42,094 nt of DNA from Alphaproteobacteria bacterium (GTDB taxonomy: Bacteria > Pseudomonadota > Alphaproteobacteria > Puniceispirillales > UBA1172): assembly GCA_024639485.1 (NCBI GenBank), contig JAHEII010000005.1:1-42094 (forward strand). The letters run 5' to 3'. Under the pieces are notes generated by a model, which was not told the DNA's origin, did no database searches, and was given only the letters and a program-made list of their open reading frames with translations. Numbering within the stretch: position 1 is the stretch's first letter; each line of letters starts with the position of its first letter. Positions 35,998 to 37,182 of the stretch are shown piece by piece. Both the position numbers and the translations under genes were made by a program.

Positions 35998-36408
35998 CTA
36001 AATACCAGCGGTCTGATCAGCGGATTGGCCAGATGCCGCCCCAGTTGATGAATTGGTGGAATTGGTATTTGGTTCCAGCCACATTTTTTCAAGCTGATAA
36101 AAATCGCGTACTTCCGGCCGGAACAGATGAACAATAATGTCACCGGCATCAATCAATATCCAGTCCCCTTGCTGGGCGCCTTCTGTGCCAGTGCTTTTAA
36201 CGCCATTGTCTTTGAGCGTCTTTCCCAAGTGATCAGCCATAGCCATCAATTGCCGCGAGGACGTTCCTGAGGCAATGACCATGTAATCAGCAATTGAGGA
36301 TTTACCAGCAAGCGGTATGGCAACAACGTCCATTGCCTTATCGTCGTCTAATGATGACAAAACCATCTGAAGCAGATGATCGCCGTCTGTAATGTGATGA
36401 TCAGAAAT
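35998..36408 (-). CDS. rsfS: Ribosomal silencing factor RsfS; proposed AUU start (ORF-track ATG start is 36366)
   Basis: LLQMVLSSLDDDKAMDVVAIPLAGKSSIADYMVIASGTSSRQ family signature. AAGGAG lies 6 nt upstream of in-frame ATT at 36408-36406. No SD is visible before ATG 36366. Confidence 0.85.
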   Translation of the reverse strand: MSDHHITDGDHLLQMVLSSLDDDKAMDVVAIPLAGKSSIADYMVIASGTSSRQLMAMADHLGKTLKDNGVKSTGTEGAQQGDWILIDAGDIIVHLFRPEVRDFYQLEKMWLEPNTNSTNSSTGAASGQSADQTAGI

Positions 36409-36452
36409 AGGTTACTCCTTCACGCTGAACATATCTGACACTTATATAACCT

Positions 36453-36481
36453 AAAATAAGATAGATATAGTGATATTCCAA
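36453..36481 (-). promoter_or_regulatory. Candidate promoter for rsfS
   Basis: On the minus strand: TTGGAA (36481-36476), 17-nt spacer, TATTTT (36458-36453), in an AT-rich gap. Confidence 0.3.
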
Positions 36482-36525
36482 TATGTATTGATAAAGATAA
36501 TTGTTCTGTCCGGGTTATTATTGGG

Positions 36526-37182
36526 TTATTTTTGGCGTGATTCCCGAATAGCGGTGGCAGAAAGCGGATTTAATCTGGTCTGAATAAAGCTCCAGTAATG
36601 GTGGTGCTTATGGCGAAATGGTTTATGCCGTAACCGACGGGCAGGACAGCGTGTCATGCGATGGGCTATCCGGCTGGCTAATGCTGATGCTTGATATCCG
36701 GGGCGATTAACCACAATCAGATGGGCGTTCCGGATAATATCATCGGTTCGGTGCCATTGATGAAATGTTGCCATATTATCCGCGCCCATTAACCAGTAAA
36801 ATGTCATGCGCGGGCAAGTTCGGGCAAGAAAACGGATGGTATCTGCGGTATAGCGCATCTGTGTGATATGTTCTAACGCGCTAACCTGCATGCGTTTATG
36901 GTGCTTGCAATGCTGTGATATGGCTTCAGCGCTGGCAAAGCGGTCGGCAAATGGCGCCATATCATGTGTCGGTTTATGGGGGTTTTGTGGGCTTGCCAGC
37001 CATATGACCTGATCCAGCTGTAATTCGGATATGGCTACATCCGCTATATGAGCATGGCCGTGATGCGCCGGATTAAATGATCCACCCAGCAACCCGATAT
37101 GCCCATGCCGTCTGGCGCGCAATCGCGCCAATAACATATGGCTGGTCGGGGTCATAGCCGGGGTCATCACGGGGGTCATCAT
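36526..37182 (-). CDS. nadD: Nicotinate-nucleotide adenylyltransferase NadD
   Basis: HIGLLGGSFNPAHHGHAHIADVAI, WLASPQNPHK, FYWLMGADNMATFHQWH; in the proA-nadD-rsfS-rlmH order. Confidence 0.94.
   Translation of the reverse strand: MMTPVMTPAMTPTSHMLLARLRARRHGHIGLLGGSFNPAHHGHAHIADVAISELQLDQVIWLASPQNPHKPTHDMAPFADRFASAEAISQHCKHHKRMQVSALEHITQMRYTADTIRFLARTCPRMTFYWLMGADNMATFHQWHRTDDIIRNAHLIVVNRPGYQASALASRIAHRMTRCPARRLRHKPFRHKHHHYWSFIQTRLNPLSATAIRESRQK

Follow-up and report, generated by a model that had tools for sequence, protein, structure and literature searches.

To our knowledge, very few bacterial genes begin at near-cognate start codons, and among them infC alone is conserved widely. Start codons other than AUG, GUG and UUG are repressed by IF3 in E. 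coli and Streptomyces (PMC5472188), and in S. aureus conserved AUU and AUA starts combined with an extended Shine–Dalgarno sequence (SD) lower expression (PMC13009471). For Caulobacter, a ribosome profiling report puts CTG at 0.7% of starts and the other near-cognate codons at 0.25% (PMC4117421). The ribosome-silencing factor RsfS of E. coli and S. aureus binds uL14 and blocks the joining of ribosomal subunits (PMC7125091, PMC13246957). In E. coli cells without RimM, IF3 persists on immature 30S subunits, and RsfS and IF3 both rise (PMC13246957). We found no report of non-AUG rsfS starts in Alphaproteobacteria, or of IF3 control of rsfS, in the freely readable main-text literature.

Here we analysed an rsfS gene that very probably begins at AUU and not at AUG. 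It lies in a 42,094-nucleotide stretch of alphaproteobacterial DNA (the window) from a 1.88-Mb draft genome of 198 contigs, to which, among named genomes, MAGs of marine alphaproteobacteria come closest, a SAR116 MAG included. The gene is flanked by nadD and rlmH. Read from the ATT, its coding sequence occupies 35998–36408 of the minus strand and encodes 136 amino acids. The product is the sole RsfS of the host genome according to the PF02410 profile, which it matches above the cut-off (E 5.1e-33) over profile positions 2–98 of 98. By homology, it would bind uL14 and block subunit joining.

The minus strand around the start reads AAGGAG TAA CCT ATT TCT GAT CAT CAC ATT ACA GAC GGC GAT CAT CTG CTT CAG ATG GTT TTG. 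The initial annotation had proposed that translation begins at the first ATT (36406–36408, read as fMet), with AAGGAG located 6 nt upstream (36415–36420), an in-frame TAA closing the frame (36412–36414) and no ATG, GTG or TTG in the rsfS frame between this stop and the ATG at 36366; each of these elements is exact to the base, and CCT alone separates the TAA from the ATT. The sequence also bears out that the internal ATG (36364–36366, minus strand), which encodes Met15 and is the start offered by ORF callers, is the sole ATG of the rsfS frame and is preceded by no SD in the window. A TTG two codons 3' of it would give a still shorter product. The window holds a single AAGGAG-N(4-8)-ATT, against 1.48 expected in shuffles, so that the motif count alone is not significant. 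As the motif is about as common by chance, a single genome cannot decide the start, while a comparison across genomes can.

The ATT is conserved in all relatives belonging to SAR116 family f1, and the SD is kept in them. Throughout the genus (seven genomes) and in further members of the family, the ATT is followed by TCT or TCC (TAC in one lineage) and stands at a constant distance from AAGGAG or AGGAG. The named MAGs likewise carry ATT-TCY with AAGGAG or AGGAG, and the upstream stop codon varies in kind and distance. Where the window has the ATG at 36366, L003 and L004 have TTA, L007 has ATT, L011 and L121 have GTT, L118 and L120 have CTT, and L122 has ATC. Two of these relatives (L011 and L121) lack any ATG, GTG or TTG from the upstream stop as far as the conserved LDDDK core, yet possess the ATT, and in L120 the ATT is present and no upstream ATG, GTG or TTG leaves a usable RsfS N-terminus. 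Comparison of the N-termini of relatives, proposed earlier as a check, thus found the ATG-only short form in no close relative. Counting against an AUU start, L003, L004 and L118 have a GTG that overlaps the SD in the rsfS frame with no stop in between. In the more distant, AT-rich SAR116 sister family f176 the corresponding codon is an ATG, with no clear SD before it.

Translation could in principle begin at the ATG at 36366, with the conserved upstream peptide representing an untranslated leader. This is the start that automatic callers propose, being the only ATG in frame, but it has no SD, and two relatives offer no ATG-type option for a short rsfS. Solved structures provide a further line of evidence. 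The RsfS of the window is similar to 3ups (E 1.7e-35), 28ye, 9q40 and the E. coli protein 30qz; the last aligns as GKALQDFVIDKIDD, in agreement with the E. coli N-terminus given in the initial annotation. The solved chains align from query residues 8–14, so a start at Met15 would cut residues that match their N-termini. The codons for residues 2–14 (SDHHITDGDHLLQ; 36367–36405, minus strand) would be missing from the product. We therefore rejected the ATG start, unconserved and lacking an SD as it is, and consider it most improbable. It is the conservation of the ATT together with the SD and the upstream peptide, while the ATG varies within the genus, and not the rarity of the motif, that decides in favour of the ATT.

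Because the window stems from a draft genome in many contigs, the ATT might have been a sequencing or assembly error for a true ATG. However, over ten genomes, each assembled separately, share this ATT, and two of them consist of a single contig: L007 and L235, the latter a SAR116 genome of 2,753,527 bp. This refutes an error, which can be dismissed with near certainty.

The leader contains a mini-ORF in the rsfS frame, ATG TTC AGC GTG AAG GAG TAA (36432–36412), which includes the SD and stops two codons before the ATT. Ribosomes might reach rsfS by re-initiation after this mini-ORF, which the window shares with L002 and L008, a variant occurring in L005 and L009. Five relatives (L003, L004, L007, L011 and L120) nonetheless lack it or have it in another frame and still retain the ATT, and its own ATG lacks an SD; re-initiation is thus very unlikely. 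A search of the rsfS leader against Rfam returned no family above threshold, and the predicted fold of the leader is no better than that of shuffled sequences (z about 0). The only promoter-like sequence within 36300–36700 is one chance-level match on the opposite strand.

To place the AUU start of the SAR116 gene in a wider context, we gathered RsfS loci from Alphaproteobacteria and other Pseudomonadota and retained 203 representatives below 80% identity (170 alphaproteobacterial, 33 non-alphaproteobacterial). For every codon that precedes the core in frame, we looked for an SD with at least 5 matches to AAGGAGGTGA at an aligned spacing of 4–8. The sampled loci lean toward high-scoring matches, and the proportions given below describe the sample and not the whole class. 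Among the alphaproteobacterial representatives, 127 of 170 have an SD with at least 5 matches (AAGGAG in the window), and the codon at SD distance is CTG, ATT, ATC or ATA in 100 of 170 as opposed to ATG, GTG or TTG in 12 of 170. Random codon sets matched for frequency (2000 sets) give a mean of 9.6, with a standard deviation of 7.2 and a maximum of 41, against the 100 near-cognate codons observed. The SAR116 representatives use ATT (16 near-cognate vs 0 canonical, n=23) and the Rhodobacterales nearly always CTG-TCT (41 vs 2, n=43), while the remaining alphaproteobacteria use chiefly ATA, CTG, ATT and ATC (43 vs 10, n=104). In Rhizobiaceae, Sinorhizobium meliloti among them, the shared sequence is AAAGGA (or AAAGGG) followed by CTG ACA ACA. 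Outside the class the counts are 1 near-cognate vs 5 canonical (n=33), and in most representatives an ATG or TTG precedes the core by about 13 codons. A TTG at a distance of exactly 13 codons is frequent in the non-alphaproteobacterial loci (e.g. L252, L269, L272, L277, L284, L287 and L291), which means that rsfS has a weak start in other Pseudomonadota as well.

In 35 of the 170 alphaproteobacterial representatives, a start at any canonical codon would leave fewer than 8 residues before the core, and 18 of them have no canonical codon at all; a near-cognate codon with an SD is present in 32 of these 35 genes without a usable canonical start. Comparative sequence evidence thus points to near-cognate starts (AUU, AUC, AUA and CUG) as a class-wide design, predicted for most of the alphaproteobacterial rsfS genes examined. 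The AUU start proposed for the window gene stands, while the scope first given to it was too small, as near-cognate rsfS starts extend through the Alphaproteobacteria. A case that counts against such readings is Caulobacter dnaA, where an upstream SD and CUG give a toeprint in vitro and are unused in vivo (PMC8443254). In many Rhodobacterales an in-frame ATG occurs 3' of the CTG, and may serve as a second start for a shorter product. The rsfS leader of many Rhodobacterales (L014–L087) also contains a GC-rich palindrome similar to CCCCGGCGCCGGGG, 5' of AAGGAGGAC and the CTG.

Two other genes served as controls. The start of rlmH, the gene next to rsfS, is ATG, GTG or TTG exactly at the aligned position in 171 of 181 cases at the same loci, which indicates that neither the loci nor the method generate false non-canonical starts; rlmH was chosen because the alignment start of nadD is unreliable. 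As a positive control, infC begins with ATA behind an SD-like sequence wherever its start was readable, the infC anchor having been located in about half of the loci only and nothing read in the remainder. In the window's own genome, infC (L308, outside the window) reads AAGGAGATACGTCA-ATA behind AAGGAG, and relatives agree.

Existing annotations of rsfS place the start inconsistently. In four annotated loci (L338, L339, L340 and L341; three Rhizobiaceae and one Rhodobacterales) the start is put at four different places relative to the conserved CTG: 26 or 10 codons before it, or 9 or 26 codons after it, with S. meliloti at 26. On the present reading, the starts of rsfS are frequently misannotated. 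Elsewhere in the window, obgE (40663–39602) is offered with a GTG several codons 5' of MKFLDQ, which we take to be the usual N-terminus of ObgE, and its start is probably over-extended.

The pattern of substitutions agrees with translation from the near-cognate codon. In 38 independent close pairs, none of the 114 sites of the rsfS start codon changed, and the 36 bases upstream of it vary without codon periodicity. The stretch from the start to the core has an excess of third-position changes (p = 8e-12); for the codons preceding the first canonical codon alone the signal is weak (p = 0.019). From a tree built on RsfS and RlmH we counted, as rough figures from short proteins with automatic start assignment, ~14 switches among ATT, ATC and ATA and ~2 from these codons to ATG. 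Since ATG is one mutational step away either way and such switches are nevertheless rare, the tree gives a hint of selection against ATG at the rsfS start, which we regard as suggestive.

These observations can be accommodated in a mechanism in which the strong SD would select the AUU in rsfS mRNA, yielding a 136-aa RsfS with fMet at position 1. AUU, AUC, AUA and CUG each differ from AUG by one base, and IF3 discriminates against all four. Joining a weak codon to a strong SD would tie the output of rsfS to start-codon proofreading and not simply make it low. When free IF3 is plentiful, rsfS would be held down; when IF3 is scarce or tied up on defective 30S subunits, more RsfS would be made. 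RsfS would then stop 50S joining, mirroring the action of IF3 on the 30S side. Initiation at the AUU itself, deduced from the comparison of sequences, is very probable. The IF3 circuit, which the initial annotation had likewise offered as a tentative step, and its physiological purpose are inferred, and we give the circuit a little less than an even chance. A broader version, in which IF3 represses RsfS through near-cognate starts kept under selection against AUG, and the loss or sequestration of IF3 raises the 50S block, would make this an ancient and still maintained alphaproteobacterial circuit; we put it at somewhat under an even chance.

Alternatively, the AUU start may be genuine and only set a low level of rsfS expression that does not change with the amount of IF3 or the state of the cell, a possibility to which we also give a little less than an even chance. 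In S. aureus reporters, AUU and AUA starts reduce expression, and the AUU of cvfC1 shows no effect of the medium (PMC13009471). Many Gammaproteobacteria-like non-alphaproteobacterial genomes use TTG for rsfS, and UUG is used in E. coli (PMC10917681), which fits a need for low output. Low output, however, would be obtained more simply through a weak SD, whereas rsfS pairs a strong SD with a near-cognate codon, as does infC, and the rarity of switches to ATG on the tree also speaks for more than low expression. Near-cognate starts in rsfS suggest that start-codon proofreading and ribosome silencing are directly linked, in a way that is easy to test.

Among known systems, infC (AUU in E. coli, AUC in Streptomyces, AUA in S. 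aureus) resembles rsfS in its near-cognate start, strong SD and wide conservation. It regulates itself, whereas rsfS would be a target and not a regulator, and infC has ATA where rsfS has ATT (SAR116) or CTG (Rhodobacterales). With the starts predicted here, rsfS would be a second gene with near-cognate starts across much of a class, and it encodes the 50S counterpart of the anti-association role of IF3. The E. coli rsfS differs from that of the window in having a canonical start, about 13 codons before the core, in the form of UUG, which is less sensitive to IF3 than near-cognate starts. It is the same gene (ybeB), again with a weak start codon (PMC10917681). The S. aureus genes cvfC1 (AUU) and ccpN (AUA) share with rsfS a conserved near-cognate codon and an extended SD (PMC13009471), but they belong to Firmicutes, do not encode ribosome factors and were mapped by Ribo-Ret and reporters. 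Streptomyces sigR, with a GTC start, resembles rsfS as a regulator whose output is limited by a non-canonical start, one that annotation pipelines put in the wrong place (PMC5472188). Unlike rsfS, it encodes a sigma factor, uses another codon and has its repression by IF3 established by experiment, while the case for rsfS is built here from comparison of genomes.
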